From assembly GCF_003073045.1 (NCBI RefSeq), contig NC_037594.1, positions 31,980,737 through 32,044,736 on the forward strand: DNA of 64,000 nucleotides, written 5' to 3'. Position numbers and translations under genes: made by a program. The stretch comes from Pomacea canaliculata. Its lineage: Eukaryota > Mollusca > Gastropoda > Architaenioglossa > Ampullariidae. Every line of letters starts with the position of its first letter. Positions within the stretch are counted from its first letter, which is position 1. Below the pieces are notes generated by a model, which saw only the letters and a program-made list of their open reading frames with translations, was not told where the DNA came from and did not search any database. This document shows positions 1-45,379 of this stretch, in pieces.

Positions 1-514
1 GTAGTGCCAGTGACTTCAGACAATGAACAGACCATTCGGCAGGTATTGTTTTATGTCTGAAAACAAAAGATATTACCGCTCATTCACACACGCCTAGAAC
101 TTTTATTTTTTGAAAATCTGTTAACAACACACTCAGGTTCCGTTAACCCTTTTTACTTTTATTTCTCTCATAGCGCTCGCACGACCAGCTGCTCGCACGC
201 TGACTGACCAACAGATAAAATCGTTGCAAAGTGAATTACTTTGATTTTCTTATGACAGAAGATCTTGTTATGTCTGTAGAAGTTTAAAGAAAAAGAAGAA
301 ACGGGGTAAACGACGGATGAAGATCTCGAAACCACCACCTGGCTGCTGATGATGATGGCGGCTAAAAGCCTCAACCACTGGGTTTGCTGAGTGTACTACC
401 GCCTTCTCCATTTTGATAAATACGTATAGAGCAAGTTCCACCCGCATTCAAGATTTCAAGATCCAACTACCAGTGTGTGGAACAAAGACAACTAAGTGTT
501 AACAAGGTGAGGTC

Positions 515-640
515 AACTAACGCTTGAATGACCTCTCTGCTGACCAGCGTGTCCACTGACCTCACTGCTGACCAGCGTGTCAATAAACGCTTGAATGACC
601 TCGCTGCTGACCAGCGTGTCCACTGACCTCGCTCCAGACC
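515..640. repeat. Short tandem repeat abutting the CFAP58 exon 8 donor
   Basis: The core CTGCTGACCAGCGTGTC occurs three times, alternating with CGCTTGAATGACCTC or CACTGACCTC. The larger unit is about 67 bp. It reaches into the 3' end of CFAP58 exon 8, so its donor context GAGGTCAGTGGAC (minus strand, 630-618) is copied at 563-551. Confidence 0.7.
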
Positions 641-3600
641 GGTGATCTGAGCTCGAAGCGTCTCGCGCTGCCGCTCCGTGTCCGCCTTCTGGTCCTCCAC
701 CTGGCGGAGCTTGCGCTGGATGGTCTCCCGCATCTTGCCCAACCGCTGCGTCTCTGACCGCAGGCCGTTCACCTCGTCTTCCTTTTGCTGCAACGACACA
801 TCACATCTAGTAACTCGAGTACCCGCTACACTCACCTGGCACGTCACCAAGCTCAAGTACCCAAACCGTCTTGCAAGTCACTAAAGCTTGCGTCTTGTAC
901 GTCACAAACCCTCACCTGTTCAATCATCTTGCACGTCACATAACCTGACTTTTGAGAATCATTATTGACGAAACTGCTCTGACAAGCCACAATTAACTTG
1001 GTAGAAATAATTTCATCCTCCACTTCCAATGTCCACACACTTCGTCACCACACACACAGACGAGACAGAGACATGTGTAGATGTGTGGACTGCGCTGATC
1101 ACTCAGATGTAAAGGTCACGACCTGCATACCTTGAGCTCGGCTGTACGCGACTGGTTCTCCTGTGCCATCTGGTCGGCGGCAACCAACTGCCCCTCGAAG
1201 TCCGTCTGTAGCTTGGTGTACCGCGCGTTCAGCACGTCTGCATCCTTGATGGCTCTCTCGTTCAGTACCTGACAACCGTGACGTCACAGTTACCCAATGT
1301 GCAGTGCGCGCCTTCACAGGTGGTAAGACATTCTTTTATAGTAAACACCCAGCCTAAGCAAGATCTCGTACTCAGATAATTTCTCAACAGTGCTTTCTGA
1401 ACATTGAGGTCAACCATGACCTAATATTACATCAACTAATGAGGTTACAGTCTCCTGTGGGTGAGTTCTGCTACCCATAATAGTACTCACCCTCTGCTCT
1501 TTGAGCTGCTGCTCCAGCTTGGTGATCTCCAGCTTGTATTTCTCTATCTGGGTCTGCATCGTTCTGTTTTCTGATGTCTTGGCATCCAGGTCGGCCTTGG
1601 ACTGCTTGAGTTCGCGCTCCAGCTTGTCCTTCTTCCTGCTCTCCCGCTGGGCTTCATTGCTGCGCACTTGGATGTCCTGAGTCAGCTGCAGCCATAGCAA
1701 CAGACCCAGCGTTTTCAACTTTTGGATCACATCGCCACCATCATGAAATCCTGTTTTCTAAGCTATGGTGAGCACATGCAGTACTGTGATGGACTGCGCC
1801 CTGTAAAGCTCTTATTTCATACTATTCATTCTAAACGGAGAATACCGATCTTCGAAAGTATGTACTTAACAAATCTGTGATAAGTGGCAATTTAAAAACT
1901 CAACTTTATCTAAACATTTGATGAAAATATATATGCAGACAACAGTAATGATTTGTTTTTGTCATGACCTGCAACACAGGTAATGAATCTGTAAAGCTAC
2001 CCAACAATGCTGCACAGTAAATATATGTTTATTCTACAAAACACAATTTAGACTTTCTTTGTAAAAAAGAAGTTGTTTTAGAAGAAAATTACAAGTATGC
2101 TTTTAGTGCAGTGAAGATTGTGCTATAGTGACCTGAAGAACAAATAATTCACAGAGCACACGAAAGTTTTATATGATGTGAGTCAACAAAGACAAAGAGA
2201 TGATTTTGTGATATTCATAAATATGCATCTTTGTTAAAATTTCTTGTCAAATGTCACACTTGCTATATTAATTATAATCTAGCATTCTAGTGCCACAACT
2301 CAATTTTCTACAGGTGACATATAAAATGGCATTCATTTCTGAATTCCCATGCATCTCTCTCTTGTCTGAAGATGTGACATAGTGACTTGGGACAAGATGT
2401 GAGCAGGTGACTTGGAACAAGATGTGACACACTCTGATGGGGCAAGATTTGCAGCTACATAACTAAAAATTAAAAAGAACAAGCAGAAAGTCTGCTTCAG
2501 TTTATATTTTGAAACTAAAAAAATGGAACTTGTGTTAAAAGACTATGGTCTTAACATCATGTGTCCAAGAGGCAAAACATGCAAAATCACTGACACGCGT
2601 AGACAGCATAAAAACCACCAGCATATTACCCTTCCACTGGAAGACTTTGTTTCAAAAACAGAAAAATATATATTGTACAACTTTCAATGTAGCCTGAGGA
2701 AGAGTCTTTTTTTGCACGAGTTCTTTTCCTCTTTCATTTTTTCTACTTTTCTCTCTCTGTTTCATCTTTCTCTACTTCCTTTGTGCCCTCTCTCTCTTGA
2801 TGCAAGATAATTATGCATAGAGTACATTTCTTTTTCATTTCATAAACTTGTTTACTGAGTTTAATATATGGTAAGTTATACTGCTTATACTACAATACTA
2901 TATTCAAAATGGAATGGCATGGCTGCCCTTGAACTGGAAGATCATAACTTCAATTGAAATGGTCAAAGGCCTAGCAATAAAGAATTCGAGTCAGAGGCCT
3001 CTCTCTCTCCACCCCAACTCTGTGTACATGTTTGTGTGTGTGTGTGCATGTTTGGGCATGTGTCTGTGTTTCCGTATGAATGCATGTATGTGAGGGGGGA
3101 GATGTTGAGGAAGGGAGTGTGAGTAAGACAGAAAGACAGAGAGAACTGATCTGTTTATTTGATGGGTCAGCGAAAGAAGGGTGAAATATAGTTTCATCGT
3201 CATCAATAAAAATCATAAGCATGAGATGGGTATATACATTCACATCATTTCTACCACTCAGCCAATAGTCCACACACACCCACCCACTGTGCATGAGTTG
3301 ACCATCAGGTCTGATCTAACTCATCACAACATGTGAAATCCAAACTATGACCATGGACTCTAAAATGGTCTACAAAAGACAGGCACATTATATTAAATAA
3401 AAAAATTGCATATTCTCAATCAAACCATTCTTCATTCACCCTCTCTTTCTTCCATATACAACACACACACACACACGCGCACACACACACCAGTATTAGG
3501 CCATCAGCCCCAGTCGAAAGAGAGAGTGTTTTCCTCTAGCGGATACCATCTATTTTCCAAACTAACATAATAACAACCAGAAACTCCTAAGGTCTCATTT

Positions 3601-6600
3601 TGGAGGGGTTTTTTTTCTGAGCTTTCCAATACTGTATAAAATAATTAAACAATTACGGAGTGGCCCATTTCAGTTTTTCTCTGCCTTGTTAACAAAAGGT
3701 TTTCACCTACTGATGCCTGACTTTCACTGATATGCTGTGGTCCCTGGCTTCTTTCTAGGGCTTCCTTATCCAGCCCAATCCTATATTCAGTCTTTCACAA
3801 ACTCAACGTAGATCTTCTATAGGCTTCGGGTCTTGCTCTAAAACCAAATCTGGATTTTCTAATGAACTTACCATCACAAAGAAGCTTATGGCCATCAAAA
3901 TACTTATGGCTGCACTCACCCAAGCTCATATTCATATTTTCTCATATATGAACAAATACACACTTGCACACAGACAAGTTTCACAATAGATGCTGGCATT
4001 TAAAACAAGAAAATACAAACTATTACTGTTGCTCCAGAAAGGTGCTGACTGTCATGAAACTGTTTGATATATGTATGAATACATATAGATGGAAAAAATG
4101 TGAAAATTCAAAAAAATGTTAGAAAGGCAGAGCAGAAGAAACACAGGAAAGAAGGAGAGACTAAGAGAAAGGGAAGAGCATGACAGTGTACATCTCAGTT
4201 TTTTAATATCGACAAATGTGCCTTGAGAAAGTTGCTTAAACCCAACAGTCATATGCAAAAAGATCAAATTTATTTAAAACCTACAGCTGTGTCTTGAGAA
4301 AATTGTTTAAGCCTAACAGCCATGTGCAGAAAGATAAAATTTATTTTAAACCCACAGCTAGGAGAACAGAGAAGGAAAGTTAAAATAAAAGTTGTTTTAG
4401 ACAGATTGATGTTGTTTTAAAAAAATACTGTGTATGGAGAGATGGAAAAGTATTTAAAACTTATAACTCTGTTCTGCAACGGTATCTAACACCTACAGCT
4501 GTGTATAGAGAGTGAGGACCATCCTTACCTCTTGGATTTTTTCCTCGGCATCAGCTCTGTCTTGCTCCAGCTTGTTCTGGAGGTTGCTGGCATCGTTCAT
4601 CTGCTCACGCAGGCGACTGATCTCTTGCAGCAGATCATCTCGCTCCTTTGTCAGGTCCTCCTTGATCTTCAGCAGCTCATTGACGCTAATGATGAAAAAA
4701 AAATGTGATGTTATTAACAGTATTGATGTAACTGATGTGATTCGACCCTGCTGTAGTCATACATGACAGGTAAAAGACAAGACATTTTGGTGGGTTTTTA
4801 CACACCTACTATTGTTACATTGACTGCTCTCAAGATTTCCATCCAATCCATATGTTTGAAGATGTTCCGTGCTTTTAGAATAAAAAATCCTGATACTTTT
4901 CTCACCAAGACACTAGCGTACAGACTCACCTTTCTACCTTTCTTCTTGAGACAGATTTAGCATTGTGATAAGAAAGATTTAGTTAAGACAGCTAGTGCTT
5001 TCTTATTAGCTCTTCATCGTCTGTATAGACACCTATGCTTATTAGCTTGTGTCTACTCACCTGTGTTCTTGGCCCATGGTGAGGCCTGCACCCTGCTCCA
5101 CTAACTTGCTGAGATTTGAGATTTCCTGCTTCAATGACTGGATGGTCTCCCTAGCACGGGTCTCCTTCTCATGAGCTGCATCCACCATTTTCCAAGCTTT
5201 TTCAATTTCCTTTGAATACAGATATGATGTGTTATAATTTTACTCTTACATGCTCTCACAGTTGATGCCAAGTATTAGAATAAGTCAGTAGACAGGCAAT
5301 ATGGACATGACAGGGATCGATGATAATGTATGGGGAAATGGGGGCAGAGTTTAAGGGTTTGTTCATAATAATTAGCACAGACAAAAACATTCAAATTCAG
5401 TGTTCCACAAAGTTCTCTTTGACACCATAACAGGGTACATTACAGGTGTCTGAGAATATCAGAGTGTAAATGTTTTTTATTATCTCCCATGATATAAATC
5501 TGCAACCCATGCTGTTAAACTAACCCTGCTAAAACCTGTGTTACAAAAAGAAAGATGGTAAGAAATGATAAAGGGAAGAAGAAAATAAAGCTTTAAATAA
5601 CAATTTAAAACAATGAATGAACAATTAATCTACAGAAATTTTAAAAAAATCAGACAAATTAATCAACCAATAAATGAAAATTGAGTCACTAATGCATAAA
5701 GGCAAGCTCTGCAATATAATTCATGCACAAAAAAAGATAAAGAACACTACTGAGAAATGGAGATATTCACATGTCGTTATCAAAGGATGGTTCAAGTGCA
5801 TTTTCTTAATCTCTTTGTAATTAAGTTAGCAAGTCACTCAACAAAATATGTGTGCGCATGCATACACTATGTGAAAGAGAGAAAGAGAATATGTGTGAAT
5901 ATATCTGTATACGTTTGTGCAGGTCCACAAGTATTTATATGCCAATATGTGCTCAAATGTTTGTGTGTGAATTTAGAAAGTATGCGTATATGCCCACATG
6001 TGAATAAGTATATTTATGCGGAAAAGAGAAAGTACAATGCACATAAATCTCACGCTTATATTAGACTCATATGTCTCAGACTATGATCAATTGAAGCTAT
6101 GTAAGAGAATATTTTCTCGACGCAATGGTATTAATAGATAATCATTCATAAACATCCCAAGCATCATCTTTGAAACATTTTGAACTATTTTATTGCCCTA
6201 GGGGCATTTTTAGTCATAACCTCATATAATAATCATACAATTACAATAATCATACAATATCATACTCATCACACAATAACAATCTCACAACAGATTATGA
6301 CAACACGGCAAAATATATAGATGAATACACAATACTAAAGCATTATATATAGGGATTACTTAAACAGTGATAATGAGTTTGAATAAATTTCCTTAAGTTA
6401 ACAAGTATACTTATGGATTGACTATTCATCAGGTGGTGAAATTTATATTCATTTGGAGGATGCACAACATGTACTGAAAGCCATTTTAATACCTTCTTCA
6501 AAGATGCAATAGTTGCCTGGTCTTCCTGTGACAGTTTGAGAGCTGTGGCAACTTTTGCTGAGTTGGCAACTATTTCTGCATTTAGCTCCCGACATTTCTG

Positions 6601-7852
6601 CATCAAACGCTTCTCACTGTCATGGGATTTTTTCAAAGCTTTGTGCAGCTTTTCATACTCTACTCGAAACTTCTCTAAGCTCCTGTCCCCCATCAGTTCT
6701 GCCAATGTCTAGAAACAACAAAACCACAAATGTAGAAAGGAAATATAATTATGACATCACATATCACTGGAAAAAATTATATTCATATGATACTTTTATA
6801 ATACTTTACATATTAGACAAATTACAATTACCCTGATTGTAGGCCAATTGTTTATTTGCCAGAAAATGCATAACTTTCAAAGCAATGATGTGACAGCTGA
6901 CAATAATCTTTATTTTTATTACTGTCACAAATAAAATTATTATGCTATTTAACATACACCTTCAAATTCAGAAAATCATATTGTATAATGTGAGCCTTTA
7001 CTCAAAATTTATTAAGCCCAATCCTTTCTATGCTGGGGAAAAAAATATACAATAATTTTGTATATGTTGTCAAATTATGCAGTTTGAAGAACATCTAATG
7101 GCAAGATAATCCTAATAGAAAAATGATTTTGTAAATTGGAAAGTCATTTTACTTCTTGAAAGTCTTTCTCTAGTGCCTCAAAGGCACTATCATCGAATGT
7201 CCCTTTCTCCTTCTTCTCCTGAAAAAAATAAAAACAGTGAATGATGATGATGAAGAGGAGAAATTTTAAGATGATAACGAGGAGGAGAATGCACTATACC
7301 TATAAAGATGTATGCTATTTACGTTCTTTTGGAATTCGAAAAAATAGGTGTCCAAAATGTATCTCCCCAAATAAAAGTACCTTAATTTTGTGATTGAAGT
7401 ATACTAACCTACAATTAATTACATTTGCATAGCTCATGGATGAACTATAAAATTATCAGTATTAAAAACGCTAATACGGTTCAAAATGAGGGGAAAATTA
7501 TCTCATGCATTCTAATGAAGCAAATCCTAAGTATAATTGTATGTTGATATTTAACGAGTGTAATTTTTGTTCAATTCACCAAAGCATCGGGTACAGGTAC
7601 GTTCTATTTTGGAGAGCTGGTCGAGGTTTTTCTTGTCTTTTTTTCATGCCATAATGTGATAATACGTAACATCAAAATTGTTTCCATCTACTGACGTGGT
7701 ATCCTTTACTTATTTTAATCACTACACTTTAAAAACACATTTTAATTGATGGCGTACACTATAGCTGAGACTCTCAGTGAAATGGGAAAATAAACCGACA
7801 AGTACGATCAGGAGGCAAGAAAAATTGAGAACACTATAAATACCTCCGTCAT
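628..7852 (-). CDS. CFAP58: Cilia- and flagella-associated protein 58 (CFAP58/CCDC147), N-terminal part, split gene
   Basis: CFAP58 is a long coiled-coil protein of motile cilia and sperm flagella. Eight coding exons can be joined in phase on the minus strand: 7852-7844, 7218-7153, 6708-6493, 5209-5061, 4685-4529, 1685-1491, 1268-1131 and 787-628, each with AG before and GT after. They give about 363 residues starting MTEEKKEKGTFDDSAFEALE. Family-typical stretches include LEKFRVEYEKLHKALKKSHD, KRLMQKCRELNAEIV, NSAKVATALKLSQEDQATIA, EIEKAWKMVDAAHEKE and KLEQQLKEQR. The product is almost entirely heptad-patterned, charged helix. The start is the tiny first exon (ATG at 7852-7850), which supplies only MTE before a 625-bp intron. 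The vertebrate protein is about 870 residues, so the C-terminal half should lie beyond position 1; no ninth exon is visible in 1-627. Identification is from family resemblance and is strong; exact exon borders are hand-called. Confidence 0.93.
3460..3492. repeat. (AC)n microsatellite
   Basis: An AC dinucleotide run with a short GCGC interruption, inside CFAP58 intron 5. Confidence 0.9.
4219..4360. repeat. Two-copy tandem duplication of about 70 bp in CFAP58 intron 5
   Basis: The segment beginning TGTGCCTTGAGAAAGTTGCT at 4219 recurs in diverged form as TGTGTCTTGAGAAAATTGTT at 4288. Both copies end near an A/T-rich run and ACAGCT. A third partial end (ACCTACAGCTGTGTA) lies near 4490. The copies differ at many positions, so the duplication is not recent. 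Confidence 0.65.
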
Positions 7853-12298: not shown

Positions 12299-15148
12299 AT
12301 GGCGGCGGTTTCTTCGCGCTCTGTGGCTTTCTCCTTTGCTTTTTTATACGGTAAGTCGCAGAGATGCAAATTAAGGAATCATTAATTATTGTTTCAAAGG
12401 TCCTGTTGTGTCAAACTGTGGAGTGTAGACATCTTTAAAGTCTATCAACGGTTGCAAAATTCCCTGTTTTATTCGAGAAGCTTGCAAGTGAAACAAACTG
12501 TCATGCTCTTCTTTTCTTCTGTCATTTTTATTTCTGTTCGATTTTCTTTTTTCTTTGTCTTTTCTTTCCTTGAACATTTCTTTGTTTTTGTTTTGGATGT
12601 GTGTGTTCTCTTTCTCCCTGTTCAGTAGCAGTAAACTCGGAATTTGGTATCCGTAGTGGCTGTAGAATAGTTTGATGAACACTTTTTATGCCTAGGTAAA
12701 AGACAAGGTACTAGCAGCAAACGACCTAATACATCAATACCTGGAAACTGAGAATTTGTGTATAAGTGAAAACTACTCTCAACAAGTAAAAATGGCGAAA
12801 AAAATTTATCTTTCATTCACAACTCCTGCATTTTGAGATACATGTACTCAGTCAGCTTCTTTTAGGATTGAGGGATGTTTTCTGACACACTTTCTGTGAC
12901 ATTTCTTGATTCCCGTGTCTGCTATTCTAAGAGAAAGATTTATCTACTTCTCGCCCTCACAATTCCTGGTGAGTCACATGAGAAACTGCAGGATTCCCTA
13001 CAGGTAAAGAATGGTTATCTCAGACATACTGCCAACAGTTTCTGGCTCGCAAGATCTGTATCCAGGCTAAAGCTAGAAAAAAAAATCTCTGGAATTCCTC
13101 GTCACATAGTTTTGTGAACTCATCCTTCATCTAAGCAATGGTTTAAAACCTTCTTTTCCTTTTTAACCATGGTCCCTTTAACTAATCAAAATCTCACGGA
13201 TTCACGCAATGTGAGTAAGCAGTGAAATGTTATCTGTCTCAAAATTTTTCTGCAATTTTTTATTGCTTCTTGTTATAAACTTCATAAGTTGAGTCTGTTA
13301 TGCGAGCCACACACAAGCGCGTGCGCACGCGCGATCTCGGGGAGGCAATCCCCAGTAAAGTATTCCTGGTTCCATAAGCGTCTTTGAGAGAGAGTGAGAA
13401 ATAGAGAGACAGACAGAGAAAAAAATGAAGGAGAAGGAAGGTGGCAGAGAATGTGGAGAGAAAGGATGTTAGAGAGTGACATGCCTTTGACTTTTGTCCC
13501 ATTTTTTTCTTTAGTTTGGATGTTGCTGCCAACAAGTCAGGTGCACGGTAAGATACCTCTGTACCTTATCCGGCTGCGAGAACTACTTCAACGTCAAAGA
13601 GCCTTCGAGCAAGTCCAGAACACACGCCTGAAGACCCTGGAGGAAGCCTCGACATCCTTCGCCAGCCAACTGTTTCCTCTCCAGCTTTCCGCCGATAACC
13701 ATAGCAACGTGATTTTGTCTCCTCTGGGCGCCTTTGCTTCCATGGCCATGACCCTGTCAGGTTCAGACGGAATGACGAAAATGGAAGTACGCCAACTCTT
13801 GCGCATGCCTAATATCACGGGTGTGCACACGACGATCCAGCATGCCTTCCGAACGTTTCACAACGATGACACCAGTATTGGCAACGACCCCGCCGCGGAC
13901 GACGACGGCTTTGCTAGCGACGCCACCAGCGAGGACTTTCCTGAAGACATGGACAGGGAGTACGCCAAGATCGTTGAGATCGCGAAAAATGACCTCGCTG
14001 TTGATAAAAGCATCAGTTACACCACCGGCAGCAGCAACATCATGTCTGGGATCGGTATTTCGCTCGCGACCGTCGGTAGCAGCAGCGACGTCGACAACAA
14101 GCGACAACTCTCCGAAGATGACGTCAGACCTCGCGTGACCGCGCGCTTCGCCAACGGCCTGTTCCACAGCGATGACGTGGCGATGACTCAGTTGTTTTCC
14201 AACCGTCTGGCGGAGCTGTATGGAGCGCCCCCGATGGCCATGGAGCCCTCTGACCCCGCCTCCTCCGTCAACCTTTGGGTGGACGCCACCACGCTTGGCA
14301 CCGTGCCCCAGATGCTGGATGCGCCCCTTGACCCCGGAAACTCATCTCTCTTCTTGGTCAGCGCCGTCTTCTTTCACGGCGCCTGGCAGGACGAGTTTGA
14401 CGCCCGCAAGACAGTGCCGGTGGACTTCAGCACGGACGTCGGAGACACGGTCCGCATCGATACCATGCACCGTATCGGCAACTACTCCGTCAAGACGCCT
14501 GAAGACATCGGAAGCAAAATTCTGGAGCTGCCATACGCCGGGGGCAACTACAGTCTCTTTGTCTTCCTTCCGCTGCCCGGCCATGACTTGTCCCAGCTGG
14601 CCGAGCGCCTGAGGTCGGCGGACATTCCTATCCTACTCCGCGATATGCCGCCTCCGACCTTGACCCTTGTCCTGCTGCCCAAGTTTAGGGTCAGCCAGAG
14701 GCAATCACTGAAATTATCCATGGAGACCCTTGGAGCAAGACGTCTGTTCAAGCCCTGGCAGGCGCAGCTTCAGAGGATGACGGGAGAGGAAAAAAGCAGG
14801 TTGCACGTGCAAGACGTCATCCAGTATGCCGCTCTGCACGTGGACGAAGGAGGAAGCCTCTTACGGAATGGTGATGCTCCCCGCGACACGTCATCACACT
14901 CGTCGACCCTAGACAGCACCCCGACAACACCTTTCGACGTCAGCGATGAAGAGCAGTACCCTGAGATAGACGATGATGATTATTCTGACTATGAAGATGA
15001 TGAAATTGAGGAAGACTACGACACAGAAGATGGAGTAGATGGAGACATTAATGACTTCATCGTAGATAGGCCGTTCCTTTTTGTGCTGCTGGACAAACGA
15101 TTTCAGCTTGTGCTGCTCATGGGTCGGGTAGCGACACCGATTCCTTGA
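12299..15148 (+). CDS. Secreted serpin with an enlarged acidic reactive-loop region
   Basis: Two exons, 12299-12350 and 13515-15148, join in phase (TAC G|GT..AG|TT TGG) to give 561 residues. Exon 1 starts MAAVSSRSVAFSFAFLY and runs into VWMLLPTSQVHG, a convincing signal peptide. Serpin landmarks (561-residue numbering): NVILSPLGAFASMAM (82-96), VTARFANGLF (from 225), VNLWVDATTLGTVPQML (269-285), SAVFFHGAWQDEF (about 310-322), LLPKFRVS (from 404), ALHVDEGGS (457-465) and DRPFLFVLL (535-543), with C-terminal LLMGRVATPIP. Two insertions stand out. Residues about 134-224 are Ser/Asp-rich and sit after the helix C/D region. The reactive loop from GGS (463) to VDRPF is about 70 residues instead of about 25 and ends in a stretch with 23 Asp/Glu in 40 (492-531). 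The hinge lacks the small-residue run of inhibitory serpins. At least five NxS/T sites are present. The fold assignment is secure; inhibitory activity is doubtful and the target is unknown. Confidence 0.9.
12351..13514 (+). other. Serpin intron splitting the signal peptide
   Basis: A 1,164-bp intron with donor GGTAAGT and an acceptor after a T-rich tract (TTTTTTTCTTTAG). The exon 2 frame stays open upstream through the acceptor to 13394, where the polypyrimidine tract reads as hydrophobic residues, so an intronic start is possible on paper. I prefer the spliced start because exon 1 provides a typical signal sequence and the phase matches exactly. Confidence 0.7.
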
Positions 15149-16510
15149 ACTCACGAAGCAGTGCGGTGTCCGCTGAAGGTCTGCGCTACATGAGTGCGAG
15201 TCCAGTAAACACAACTTCACCTGCAGATGGGAACTACGACGGTTGCGCTCCACCCGACGAGAACCATCGCCACCTAAAGTGAGTTTGATAAACACGATTC
15301 ATCTCTCTCAGAGCCATCTTCGATTCTGTGTTCCATGAAAGAAAGACATTCCTGAATCAACTAGTGTCTTCATGTCATGTCGGCATCTGTGGTTAAAGAA
15401 ATTTTTATGCATTTATTTCGACCTCTCAAGCAGTCCCATCAATGTCCTGTTTTCATACAGCGCCTAGAGTAACGACAACGAAAGAACGAGGATTGGTGAA
15501 GAAGAGAACAAAGTAATATATTACTTATACGGGGTGATATCCTCAACTTTAAACTCAGCCTCGCGCCGCTGACAGTGTAATGAATGCTGCCATTTCCTCA
15601 GCTGCACTACAGGCTGCGAGGCGTGCAGGTGATGGCGAAGGGAACTGAAGAGAACACGTGTTAGTCACGATGGAGGCTGTCCTCAGTTTGTAGTAGATGA
15701 CCCACGGCGATGGGAGGACGATAGGAAATATGTTGATTCTCCCGTGACAGTGTTTCTTGGGCCTTACAGTGTGCGACTATCTTGTGTGTGTGTATGAGAG
15801 AGATATAACGAAGAAAAGAAGAAAAAAAATTGAAATGTGAGAATGAGGCAGAAAACGAAGAAAGAAAGAAACAAAGAAATGAAATGTGCTTGCATGTGTG
15901 TGAGTGTCTTTATGGCGCAGGTATTTATATCCATGTATGCCTGTCCTTGCATGTGCGTACACGCTCCAGAAGTTTGAAAAATATTAAATTTTTGTGAAAT
16001 TCAAAGAGTTTAAGTTTAATTAAGGTAACTTGGTTGTATCACTGTACATCATTAAAAGAGTATTTTTTTTACTGAAATATGAGGATTTCATTTAAAGAGC
16101 GTTCTCGTAACGTTAAGAATCGAAGAAAGATTGATGAGGCAGACAAGTAAAGACAGGGTAGAGAAAAGCAAATGAGAAACAACCATCTTTATTTGATCAC
16201 AAAATTTAATAATAATTTGGGAAGGTGCTCCCAGTTACAAGTTACATCATTTCAAAATGGCGATTAACTGACTATATCAACCGACTCTATAATGAGACAG
16301 TTTTTTACAAACAGTGAAGCGTAGAATGGCGTCTTTTCAAGACATATCAATATATTCATGATATAACTTTTGATAGTTTTGACATATACGAATAAACGAC
16401 GCGTCGCACTGGCAGCTTCAAAAGAGTTCCGCTGCCAAACGACAGTCTGCTTACATGGAGAGAGCAAAGCAGATCATGTTTCACGTCCAACATCCGGTAG
16501 TCAGCACACT
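15149..16510. other. Shared 3' flank of the convergent serpin and DyP genes
   Basis: This should hold both 3' UTRs. ATTAAA motifs at 15983 and 16051 could serve the plus-strand serpin, and AATAAA on the minus strand at 16193-16188 the peroxidase. No coding exon is seen. Confidence 0.6.
16188..16193 (-). promoter_or_regulatory. Polyadenylation signal AATAAA of the DyP peroxidase gene
   Basis: AATAAA on the minus strand about 320 nt after the stop codon at 16513-16511. Confidence 0.5.
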
Positions 16511-25906: not shown

Positions 25907-28165
25907 CTAAGAAGCCTTGAACACTCCAACTCTAGCTGGTCTCAGTGTCCTGTCGTGCAGCCTGTAACCTATCTGCTGGACAATGGCAATTGTGTCCCCC
26001 TTTTTGTCTGAGGTTGGTACTTGGAACAATGCTTCATGAAAGTTAGGGTCAAACTTTTCCCCCTCACTAGGGGCTATTTTAAAGAGACCATGTTTCCCAA
26101 AAACTTTCTGCAGCTGGGTTTCTGTCATTTTGAGTCCATCGAAAAGATTCTTGAGGTGAGGGTTAGCATCAGTAAGTTGCTCTTGAGGAACACTTGTAGT
26201 GGCTGTGCCTAAGATATCTGCAACCTCCAGAAGATCCTTGCAAAAGCCTTGGATCCCATATAACTTTGCATCATCTACTTGTTTGTTCATTCGCTGACGG
26301 ACGTTTTCCGTTTCTGCTAAAGCACGAATGTACTTTTCCTGGAAAAACGAATTTTTAAAAAATAAATTAAGCAACATATAAGTGTATGATATATTCATAA
26401 AGATGAGGTAGTCAGATATCTTTCCTATTTTCTGTTTGCTAACTGATGTTTGATGAGTCTAGTCAAGCAAAATTGTTTATGAAACTAAACCTGAAGCTGC
26501 ATTGAAAGAAATTTACTGAAACATTTTTTATCATTATTAAACCTGGATATCTTAAAGAATACTTTGCTGTTAATGGGACTGCCTATTAAGGTAAATTTTA
26601 ATAGAAAATATGCATAATCATAAAAGTCAAGGATTGAAGTCACTTTTCACAAACTAATTAGCCAAACACTCTGAAATGGTTGATATACACATGTGGGATC
26701 GCATACTTCCACCAGCTGACATAGCTGTTATTATTTGAGACGAAGTATGCTACAAAACATGACTTCTTAAAGTTTTGTCTGTCTTTATTTTTGTGTGTAG
26801 TGTGATAAATACTATTAGATCTTTAAAATATTTTAAAACTTGTTCTCTTCCCAAACTGTTCCCACACATTAAATACTTATAACATTGACAATTGTCTGAC
26901 ATAACATGTGTAAAGCAAAATTCTTATATATTATACTCAAACACACCCACACATATTTTCAGGCTTAAAAATTACTTTTAGCTCCTTTAGATCCTCCTGA
27001 AGTTTGGACTTCTCTTCAATCAAAGCTTTCTCTGCTGCAGATACTTCTAGCTTCTCTGCTCCTGGTGCAGCATTCTGTACTGTCTCTTCTGATTTTACAC
27101 TGTCACTAGCATCAGCAGGCCTCCCATCTGCTGCTGTTGAAAATGGTCTAAGAAACTGCACTCTGCCAAAAATAAGAACAAAAGTTAATTGCTGCAAGAA
27201 GTCAGATGTTTTGTATCAAAGGTAACAAGAATAATGGCTCTACTGGACATAAAGGGTTAGAGCACTTTACTTACTCTTTCTTCCATTGTGTGTTTATGTA
27301 TTGTCAGTACAGGCTGATAAGAACATTACCTATACAACAAGAACTAAATAAATGTTTTTTAATATAGTATACTATATACCCTATGTCATGTTCGATCATT
27401 TGTGATCTGTATGCGATGTCACATGTTTAAGATGGAAAGTGAAAAGTGGGCATTATAAAGAAATTATTTTATTTTAGATTAATAATCAGTACAGTGGAAT
27501 CTCAGTTAGCGAACACCTTGGATAGCGAACATTTCGGATAACAACCAAAAAGTTCGTTAAAAATTTGCACCGGATACCAAACAAAATTCCTAAGGACAAG
27601 AGTTGCTATATAGCATGTAACTTCATATATTAGTGAATCAACAGGGGCTGAGAACCAATTAAAATCTAAAATCTATTTCCTTTATTTCTTATGGGGAAAA
27701 TTGTTTCGGATACCAAATATTTCGGGTACCGACCAACTTTCCAGAACGGATTGTGGTCGTTAGCCGAGGTTCCACTTTACATGCATCTTACTGTTTAGGT
27801 AATTAACGATATGTTGAGTTTTTTTTTAATTTAAACTATCTCATTTAATAAAGACTATTGAGCAATCCATTCTGAGAGAATCAAAAAGGCATTCATTTCA
27901 TTTAAAGGTCAATACAAATTTCTTTCAGACGATGAAATACTACTGTCTATTGCACCAGCATCGTCTGTTCTTTCTAGTACATTCTAAATCAAGGATAAGT
28001 AAAACGGTAAAAATAGATAAATACCATCACAGTCAGGGCAAAATGACAAATTACTAAAGCAATTAATCTTTAAAATATGAAATGGAATAACTCATACCTG
28101 TTACTTCCTCTTAATAAGCAAAATCGAGCTGCAGACCTTGCCCACATGTTTGTGACCGCTGCCAT
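25907..28165 (-). CDS. GRPEL1: Mitochondrial GrpE homologue 1
   Basis: Three exons, 28165-28098, 27162-26976 and 26338-25907, join in phase to give 228 residues, the usual size for GRPEL1. The product is the nucleotide exchange factor of mitochondrial Hsp70: it releases ADP from the chaperone during protein import and folding in the matrix. Residues 1-about 35 (MAAVTNMWARSAARFCLLRG then NRVQFLRPFS) form an Arg-rich presequence. Residues about 60-110 are the long dimerisation helix (EEKSKLQEDLKELKEKYIRA). YGIQGFCKDLLEVADIL starts at 112. The C-terminal beta domain ends with the GrpE signature GYRLHDRTLRPARVGV (209-224). Exon 2 ends cleanly at LKELK and exon 3 starts EKYIRAL, with no gap against the family. 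It is followed on the same strand by the DyP gene. Confidence 0.96.
27492..27777. mobile_element. Tigger-like MITE, 286 bp, in GRPEL1 intron 1
   Basis: The left end CAGTGGAATCTCAGTTAGCGAAC pairs, with a few mismatches, with the right end read on the minus strand as AAGTGGAACCTCGGCTAACGACC, and TA flanks both sides. The ends match the CAGTGGAACCTCG family of pogo/Tigger MITEs. Inner repeats ATTTCGGATA and CGGATACCAAA echo the termini. There is no coding capacity. Confidence 0.82.
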
Positions 28166-41857: not shown

Positions 41858-44800
41858 ATGGATAAGTTAACTATATGTTCTATGAATTGTCGAGGCTTGG
41901 GAGACCCGAATAAAAGAGATGATATTCTCCATTTCCTTAAAGAAAAAATACAACGTATACTGTATTCAAGAAACTCATTTTACTAAAAAAATAGAACATA
42001 TTGTCAAAGCAAAATGGGGATATGATGTTTACTTTAATTCTCACAGTTCAAACGCTAAGGTCTGGCAATATTAATCAATAATAACTTCGAATACAAATAC
42101 AAAGATCTATACAATGATCCAGCTGGAAACTTTATGATTTTAAAAGTGTGCATTGATGACTTTGATTATCTGCTAGTTAACTTCATGGCCCAAATACTGA
42201 TAGTCCAGCTTATTACAGTGAACTTAAAGAAAAGCTGCATAATCGAGAAAAAGTCTATGTCATCATGACTGGTGATTGGAACCTGGTGTTAAACCCACTC
42301 TTGATTATTGCAACTATAAAAGAATAAATAATCCCAATTCGAGGAAAATAGTAAAAAACATTATTGAAGAGTTTAATCTAGTTGATATTTGGAGAGAGAT
42401 GCATTCTGAGACTAAAGGTTTCACTTGGCGCAAGAGACACCACTACAACAGGCTAGGTTAGACTTCTTTCTGATATCAGAAACATTAGCCGGGGAAGTTA
42501 CTTCAGCAAAAATAGAACCATCTTATAGATCTGACCATTCCCCTATAATGATATCACTTCAGCTAGGAAAAATCATGGAAAATGCAAGACATTCTGGAAG
42601 TTTAATAAATCCCTTCTTAAAGATGAGGAGTACATACAATTAGCCAAGAAGGTCATTAGCGAGACTAGAGAACAATATGCAGCTTTACCATTTGTCGTGA
42701 ATCACTGGACTCCATTTCTCCTTCTGATCTTCACCTCCAAATAAGTGATCAACTTTTTTTTGAAATGTTACTTTTACAGATTAGGGGAGCCAGTATAGCT
42801 TATGCATCTGCCAAAAAGAGAAGCAGATTACAAGAGAGAAAGAGCTAAAACAACAAATAAGTAACATAGAAGAAAACATGACTGAAGACTCCACATTACA
42901 GCTTGTAGCACTGCAAAATGAACTACAGAATATTAGGGAACATAGAGTTGAAGGATTGAGGATACGATCGAAAGCAAAATGGATTTTCGAAGGAGAAAAA
43001 AATTCTAAATACTTCTGTAATTTAGAGAAAAGACATTTTGTAAGTAAAATTAATGAAGACAATAGAGAAAGAAAATGGGGAAATCCTTTGCGATCAAAAA
43101 CTGATTACAGAAGAATGTGAAGCATATTATAGAGAATTGTATAGAAGTAAGGAGTCTGAATTAATGGAGTTTAAGCCAAACTGTCTGGAGAAAATAACTT
43201 CCCAATACTAACTGAAGATGAAAAGAATGAATTAGAAGGTTTAATAACAGAAAAAGAAGCATGCAGAGCTCTTAGAGAATGAAGAATGATAAAAGCCCTG
43301 GAAATGATGGTTTCCCAGTAGAGTTCTTCAAATTCTTTTGGAAAGATTTAGGAATATTTCTAATAAGATCATTAAATGAGGGGTTCAAAATGGGCAGTTT
43401 ATCTGTAACACAGAGACAGGGGGTTATAACACTAATACCAAAAGGAGACAAACCCAAACATCTGTTAAAAAATTGGCGCCCAATCTCTTTATTAAATGTG
43501 TCATATAAAATTGCCTCAGCCTGTATAGCTCAGAGAATAAAGCGAGTTATGCCATCTATTATTCACGAGGATCAGAGAGGTTTTATGCAAGGAAGATCGA
43601 CTGCAGATAATATTAGACTAGTATATGATATATTATACTATACTCAGTTACAGCGGAAGCCAGGTTTGCTACTGCTAGTGGACTTTGAGAAAGCTTTCGA
43701 TTCCATTGCACACTCATTTATTCAGAAAGCCCTTAGACTGTTTAATTTTGGACCAGATCTTTTACGGTGGGTAAATGTATTTTATAAAGATGCAGAATCT
43801 TGCCTTATTGTAAATGGCTGTGTCTCTCGACGTTTTCGTATAGAACGAGGTTGCAGACAGGGCGATCCTCTTTCGCCATATATCTTCCTTATATGTGCGG
43901 AAATTCTCTCCATTCTACTTAGAGATAATGCTGATATTAAAGGTATAGTTGTGGGAAGCAAATCATTCCTAGTGTCACAATTTGCTGATGACATGTCATT
44001 GTTTCTTGATGGATCTAAAGAATCTTTTGAAGCAACTGTTTGGGAATTGGAGAAGTTTGCTCTGTTTTCAGGTCTCAATATTAACTTTTGATAAAACTGC
44101 TGCAATTTGGATTGGTATTAATCGAGGCTGCTTGACACGCTATATGACTCAATTAAAAATTCAATGGAATCCCGAAACATTTACAGTTCTTTGGTATTAC
44201 TTTTTCTCTAGACCTTGAAGCTGTGATAAATATTAACTACCAAAGAATTTTACTAAAATGCACAGGATTATGATGGAATGGAAGGCGAGAGATCTCACAC
44301 CAATAGGGAGAAACGCTGTATTCAATCCCTTATACTGTCTTTATTTACTCATCTATTTATTACTCTTCCCTGTCCTGGTAAGAATATTCTTAAGAAAATT
44401 AGTCAGTCAGCCTTTGAGTTCATTTGGAAGAAGAAAATACAAAATTAAAAAAACCACTGTTATCAGGAAATACTCAGAAGGGGGACTAAAGGTAATGGAT
44501 ATCAATGCTTTTCATAATGCACTCAAGCTGACATGGATAAGGAAGATTTGTACATCAAATGCAGGCTGGAAGTACCTTTTGAATTCAATTCATCCACAGA
44601 TTTTAAATTTTCAACAGTATGGAGGATACTTTCTGGAAAATCTTGCTGAAACAAATGTGTTTTGGAAAGATGTATTCGCTATTTTTTCTGACTTTTGCAC
44701 TAGATTTACCCCCTTGTCACTTACAGAATTTCTGCATGAACCGTTATTTTTTAATACTTTTCTGTCCAAAAATGATACACAAAAAACAGTAGAAAAATGG

Positions 44801-45379
44801 TTAAACTGTAATATTATGAAAATTGGGGATTTACTTGATAATAATGGAATACCTATGAAATTTGAAATATTCCAACAAATACATGGCAAAAATATAAACT
44901 TTCTCGAGTATTACAGTAGAATCATGGCCATTGTCAGATATAAAAGAAAGATTGGTCACTTATGGAAACAATCAGATAGAAATACTACATGCTATGCACC
45001 ACTGTTAGCCATAAACAAGCATAAAAAAGGCACAAAAGGTATATATAATAAACTGTTGTGTCCACAGACGCCTCCTACATGCATTAGAAAATGGGAAAAA
45101 GTTTTTCCAGACCTTCAGTGGGGACAAATATTTGCTCACCTTTTCATTGTTACAATGGATACAAAACTTCGGTGGTTTCAATATCGTATTCTGCATCGTG
45201 TTTTAGCTACAAACACACTATTATATCAAATAAAACTAAGAGATTCAGATCTTTGCACCTTCTGCAATCAGTCAAGGGAATCTATAGAACACTTGTTTTT
45301 TGATTGTATTATTGTTAAAAAATTTTGGAATGATCTCTTTACTAAGTTAAAAGAAAATGTGCTCATTGTGAGCAGATAG
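41858..45379 (+). pseudogene. LINE ORF2 remnant: endonuclease, reverse transcriptase, C-terminal zinc motif
   Basis: The ATG at 41858 opens MDKLTICSMNCRGLGDPNKR (endonuclease start). The next frame holds CIQETHF, later frames VIMTGDWNLVLNP and IEPSYRSDHSPIMISL, the Asp and His catalytic surroundings of an AP endonuclease. Reverse transcriptase lies in 43279-44091: DKSPGNDGFPVEFFKFFW, LIPKGDK, NWRPISLLN, DQRGFMQGRSTADNI, motif A LLLVDFEKAFDSI, GCRQGDPLSPYIF and motif C FADDMSLF at 43981. A shift near 44090 leads to the 44258-45379 frame, ending with LCTFCNQSRESIEHLFFDC, the C-terminal Cys/His element. Frameshifts and stops interrupt every domain; the product would have nicked the target and copied element RNA. 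Confidence 0.9.

Follow-up and report, generated by a model that had tools for sequence, protein, structure and literature searches.

In the 64,000-nucleotide stretch of Pomacea canaliculata DNA analyzed here (the window), a plus-strand serpin gene at 12299-15148 encodes a reactive loop of unusual length and acidity, raising the question of whether its product can inhibit proteases and, if it cannot, what such a loop could be for. The gene consists of two exons, a short one predicted to encode signal-peptide sequence and one of 1.6 kb, separated by an intron. Exon 1 (12299-12350, predicted by eye) supplies the start codon and the first half of the signal peptide (MAAVSSRSVAFSFAFLY), open from the ATG to the donor TACG/GTAAGT. 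The predicted phase 1 intron (12351-13514, GTAAGT...TTTTTTTCTTTAG) joins the exons in frame and scores 10.3 bits at its donor and 10.0 bits at its acceptor, using approximate weight matrices, as for every donor and acceptor bit score reported here. Exon 2 (13515-15148), open throughout, carries the remaining serpin coding sequence to the stop (Pfam Serpin PF00079, 6.8e-63). This two-exon model, joined at 13515 after TTTTTTTCTTTAG, is better than a single exon; it yields 561 residues, compared with 560 from an alternative start at ATG 13466, and the residue numbers of the initial annotation agree with it. By eye, the start of the product (MAAVSSRSVAFSFAFLYVWMLLPTSQVHG) resembles a typical signal peptide, and on the strength of that signal peptide the product, which contains five N-glycosylation sequons, is probably secreted. 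Two ATTAAA hexamers resembling poly(A) signals, as motif matches only, lie downstream of the stop on the same strand (15983-16056, at 15983 and 16051).

Membership in the serpin family is clear from several searches. The long open frame at 13394-15148 matched the Pfam Serpin profile with 213.5 bits against a curated cut-off of 27, and the gene product matched 193 distinct sequences of solved serpins at E 0.001 (best, 2e-31), homology that supports a serpin fold. The main body from strand s2A to the hinge occupies 14132-14854 (Pfam positions 80-322 map to 14132-14857), and the C-terminal strands past the loop (DRPFLFVLLDKRFQLVLLMGRVATPIP), placed by alignment to serpins and by a profile of those strands, occupy 15065-15145. 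The earlier description of the product as a serpin, probably secreted, thus holds on the Pfam match and the signal peptide seen by eye. AlphaFold2, run on the protein with a two-row alignment whose other row was a bacterial serpin with a misaligned s2A region, returned a mean pLDDT of 29.6. The serpin body is a single exon (13515-15148), whereas most of the genome's other serpin matches fall into several separate pieces, so the gene may have arisen from a retrocopy in which the signal-peptide intron was retained or gained.

The central feature of the gene is its reactive loop. The motif VDEGGS starts at residue 460 (nucleotide 14840) and DRPFLF at residue 535 (nucleotide 15065) in the 561-residue numbering, and in the rebuilt product 70 residues, 26 of them Asp or Glu, were counted between VDEGG and DRPFLF, as the initial annotation had estimated. 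The translated first part of this loop (14855-14935, SLLRNGDAPRDTSSHSSTLDSTPTTPF) is rich in Ser, Thr, and Pro and could be an O-glycosylated stalk. It is followed by an acidic, tyrosine-bearing segment (14936-15055, residues 492-531) in which a recount found the 23 Asp/Glu in 40 residues and the tyrosines at 499, 507, 510, and 519 exactly as claimed (codons at 14957, 14981, 14990, and 15017). All four tyrosines sit among acids, three of them directly after Asp, and the 61 residues from 475 to 535 include no Lys or Arg. When the mature protein of 532 residues was shuffled 20,000 times, no 40-residue window with 23 Asp/Glu arose, showing that the segment is not a chance product of composition. 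No PDB chain resembled the loop alone at E 10.

A search of the genome (440,159,624 bases in 24 contigs) placed this loop among those of other serpins. The family search returned at least 118 pieces, and the 25 listed pieces that extend to the profile end all lay within the loci examined. A small profile built on the C-terminal strands, applied to loci L001-L070, gave 33 distinct ends, of which 30 were measurable: 28 by script (27 plus the window gene) and two by eye (L010 and L027, 22 residues each), with L007_p0, L008, and L017 unmeasurable. Every one of the 29 other measurable ends had a loop of 22 to 27 residues, and only the window gene, at 70, was longer, an excess of about 45 residues that bears out the claim of an overlong loop. 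The 27 other script-measured loops contained 0 to 4 Asp/Glu, compared with 26 here. Hinges followed the pattern G-T/S-x-A-A/S-A in 28 of the 29 other ends and read GTRAAP in L010, compared with GSLLRNG in the window gene. The other serpins of the genome, clustered on C14 with one on C2, share the serpin domain with the window gene at 27 to 46% identity in matched stretches but differ from it in their shorter loops, in their small-residue hinges, and in matches that mostly fall into multiple pieces, like multi-exon genes. No close paralogue was found in the genome, where the best other match had 38% identity across 87 residues, with up to 46% in some short matches at the N-terminal end. Two scans for orthologues in viral contigs found none, and a scan of genome contigs returned one bacterial serpin, the one used in the AlphaFold2 alignment (L072).

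The hinge bears directly on inhibitory capacity. Inhibitory serpins are described as having Glu at P17, Glu, Lys, or Arg at P16, Gly at P15, Thr or Ser at P14, and Ala, Gly, or Ser at P12 to P9 (PMC10671500). Translation of 14840-14884 on the plus strand gives V-D-E-G-G-S-L-L-R-N-G-D-A-P-R, in which Glu at P17, Gly at P15, Ser at P14, and the residue at P9 fit this consensus, while Gly at P16, Leu at P12, Arg at P11, and Asn at P10 do not. The assertion that the hinge lacks the small-residue run is confirmed by its reading, E-G-G-S-L-L-R-N-G, and the view that it is unfit for insertion is supported. Because the hinge departs from the consensus at four positions (P16 and P12 to P10) and the loop greatly exceeds the normal length (70 residues versus 22 to 27 in all 29 other measurable ends), this protein is quite unlikely to inhibit proteases. 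Shutter residues are also altered in the conserpin alignment (N186 to Ser, H334 to Gln, and S56 to Gly, in conventional serpin numbering). The S56 position is Ser in all six paralogue motifs found, and the N186 position is Gln in both recovered paralogue variants, which come from a cluster with normal hinges, so the shutter changes make a weak argument about function.

Two features that the initial annotation did not mention, a second acidic insertion and a low GC3 in the acidic segment, add to the description of the gene. The insertion lies between helix D and strand s2A (13862-14131, plus strand) and spans 90 codons where conserpin has about 5 residues; it holds 21 Asp/Glu and 7 Lys/Arg, for a net charge of -14. 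In the alignment to conserpin, residues 132 and 225 of the 560-residue form fall opposite conserpin residues 95 and 101, respectively, so that 92 residues face 5, an excess of about 87. Net charge is -24 in the loop, -14 in the helix D-s2A insert, and 0 in the remaining mature protein, for a total of -38 and a pI of 4.5. In structures of antithrombin, helix D ends facing the protease-docking pole, and by analogy the loop and the insert may lie on one side of the molecule.

The coding sequence of the acidic segment has a composition of its own. Its GC3 is 0.38, versus 0.71 outside the loop, and its third codon positions are mixed (entropy of 1.88 bits, versus 1.38 and 1.27), with first and second positions rich in G and A. 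No tandem repeat was detected in the segment at score 30, and the two found in 13400-15300 lie outside it. Given the mixed third positions and the lack of a tandem repeat, the segment is not a fresh trinucleotide (GAN) expansion, and repeat expansion was rejected as the origin of the loop. This codon-position pattern shows only that a new repeat is ruled out; it does not prove selection. Copying from elsewhere was also rejected: searches of the genome with the loop DNA (skipping simple repeats), the loop protein, and the helix D-s2A insert found no second copy of any of them, each matching the gene itself alone.

One reading that joins these features, which we give roughly an even chance of being right, is that this serpin is a secreted, non-inhibitory scaffold whose polyanionic arm, perhaps sulfated on tyrosine, binds calcium or basic proteins. 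From the sequence we infer that such a protein would be secreted and would have abandoned protease inhibition for display, with a disordered and perhaps sulfated arm serving in binding. The reactive loop would become a flexible 70-residue arm with a stalk rich in Ser, Thr, and Pro and then a 40-residue tip of Asp, Glu, and Tyr, and the second acidic insert, where helix D ends, would add to its charge. Together the two inserts would form a polyanion with a net charge of about -38 on a core with a net charge of 0, greater still if the tyrosines are sulfated, and this polyanion would bind either the basic clusters that heparin-binding proteins and protease exosites present or divalent cations, for example calcium. 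The genome encodes the enzyme for the modification, tyrosylprotein sulfotransferase (TPST), with one open frame (C4:30654156-30654731) matching a protein-tyrosine sulfotransferase at 1.2e-91, making sulfation of Tyr 499, 507, 510, and 519 possible. As in proteins with sulfotyrosine tracts, the tyrosines lie in an acidic array on a protein that appears, from the signal peptide seen by eye, to be secreted.

The closest known designs share parts of this arrangement. The initial annotation pointed to heparin cofactor II (SERPIND1), which is likewise a secreted serpin with an acidic segment carrying sulfated tyrosines, but at the N-terminus rather than in the loop. That acidic extension has been termed unique within the superfamily (PMC3601010). 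The comparison is sound as an analogy and fails in its particulars, as the snail protein has neither an acidic N-terminal tail (from the mature N-terminus through helix D the net charge is +4) nor a basic, glycosaminoglycan-binding helix D (the region, HTTIQHAFRTFH, contains a single Arg, lacks Lys, and leads into the acidic insert); heparin cofactor II, moreover, is an inhibitor. Sulfotyrosine tracts on other folds offer a second comparison. In fibromodulin the tract, also acidic, is a ligand for collagen and for heparin-binding proteins (PMC9372746), and a convergent origin of such tracts has been proposed for vertebrate SLRPs (PMC7310474). Fibromodulin, osteoadherin, and GPIHBP1 resemble the snail serpin in carrying an acidic tract on a secreted scaffold (PMC9372746, PMC7310474), but their sulfotyrosine tracts are terminal tails on other folds, whereas the snail tract is a loop inside a serpin and its sulfation is putative.

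Several other explanations were weighed against a display scaffold. An intron mistaken for coding sequence, or an insertion introduced in assembly, is an extremely unlikely source of the acidic segment: the composition shift across the segment would suit such an artefact, but the window contains no N, and the loop stretch holds no in-frame GT-AG pair that would leave a canonical loop if removed in silico. The stretch has 60 in-frame GT/GC-AG pairs with introns of at least 41 bases. The 43 with GC donors were listed unscored, and among the 17 with GT donors only 4 would leave 18 to 32 residues. Those four have weak sites, with donors of 5.1 or -2.8 bits and acceptors of 3.7 to -6.3 bits versus 10.3 and 10.0 for the predicted intron, and all of them leave Leu-Leu-Arg-Asn in the hinge; nor does the loop contain a small-residue run that a deletion could move there. 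A hidden intron or exon in the loop was accordingly rejected, on weak scores for GT donors under these approximate matrices and a hinge defect that persists. A working inhibitor with an exosite in its enlarged loop is quite improbable. Modeled on the docking of the heparin cofactor II tail on thrombin, the acidic arm would hold a basic protease exosite before the loop is cleaved and inserted; the likeness of the acidic, tyrosine-bearing segment to known exosite ligands fits this proposal, as do the retained Glu at P17, Gly at P15, and Ser at P14, but P12-P10 are Leu-Arg-Asn where paralogues have small residues, and P1 is Ser when counted from the hinge. Serpins act by carrying the protease to the far pole, a transport that an overlong loop should impede.

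The main rival to the scaffold reading, and a serious one, is neutral drift, which we hold somewhat unlikely, with inhibition lost first, the freed loop then gaining functionless acidic low-complexity codons, and the body keeping an unrelated role. The hinge is already degenerate, the second loop between helix D and s2A is likewise expanded, and no second copy of the acidic segment was found in the genome; the drop in GC3 from 0.71 to 0.38 marks a different codon composition and would also fit a segment inserted late and perhaps free of constraint. Speaking against drift, with selection unproven in each case, are a reading frame open through both inserts, acids retained despite mixed third positions, and the 61-residue run without Lys or Arg. 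A role in binding calcium or mineral in the shell or the calcareous egg coat, a special case within the scaffold reading, has a small likelihood of its own. The Asp/Glu density of the loop favors it, as does a report of a serpin-like protein in the shell matrix of a land snail and of a mussel (PMC6368272), although the matched text of that paper concerns neither this gene nor such a loop. In another variant, rather unlikely, the serpin would have a built-in mimic of a glycosaminoglycan. Among vertebrate serpins, antithrombin and heparin cofactor II use a basic helix D to recruit heparin-like chains; here an acidic, possibly sulfated helix D end and loop would replace the heparin chain and act as a constitutive ligand of heparin-binding proteins.

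A long reactive loop is not new in itself, as codling moth CpSPN26, an insect serpin, is described as carrying an insert of nearly forty residues in its reactive loop and is likewise predicted to be non-inhibitory, although the same paper elsewhere says that its reactive loop is lacking (PMC10671500). In contrast to the snail serpin, the description of CpSPN26 in the matched text mentions neither an acidic or tyrosine-rich insert nor a second insertion (PMC10671500). Serpins have also been reported as an expanded family with a suggested link to biomineralization in Oreohelix (PMC9719178) and as serpin-domain proteins in the P. canaliculata ampulla (PMC8533556); this gene was not identified in the matched text of these two papers or of the shell-matrix study (PMC6368272). 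Among the matches listed in the open-licence PMC literature, none reported this gene or a reactive loop that is acidic and carries tyrosines, so a long serpin loop has a precedent and, among these matches, an acidic one with tyrosines does not. The snail gene is an unusual variant of a known serpin family rather than a new kind of system. If the arm of the proposed scaffold binds partners, a serpin reactive loop would have been reused to display a disordered charged module, placing a polyanion on a secreted protein without a glycosaminoglycan. The gene also provides a test case for loop evolution once the need for insertion is gone.

Other serpin loci of the genome show patterns of their own. 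Two tandem clusters, at C14:3.98-4.16 Mb and 5.36-5.41 Mb, combine small-residue hinges and variable reactive loops with very similar C-terminal strands, the pattern expected if they encode diversifying inhibitors. Outside them, L010 (C2:43242242 region) is a lone serpin with a slightly altered hinge (GTRAAPVT), and the C-terminal end of L007 lies in two reading frames, which suggests a frameshift or a sequence error.

The rest of the window holds features unrelated to serpins. Convergent with the serpin gene, a minus-strand exon at 16511-16801 matches the C-terminal domain of DyP-type peroxidases (Pfam PF20628, 3e-14); the DyP (dye-decolorizing) family is more familiar from bacteria and fungi. 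Farther along, a GrpE exon on the minus strand (25907-26458, Pfam PF01025, 1.7e-42) probably encodes the mitochondrial nucleotide-exchange factor. Two plus-strand open frames of 271 and 380 amino acids lie at 43276-45379, the first resembling a LINE-type reverse transcriptase by eye. At the other end of the window, several minus-strand open frames at 467-6708 resemble coiled coils, one of them with a possible likeness to a cilia- and flagella-associated protein such as CFAP58.
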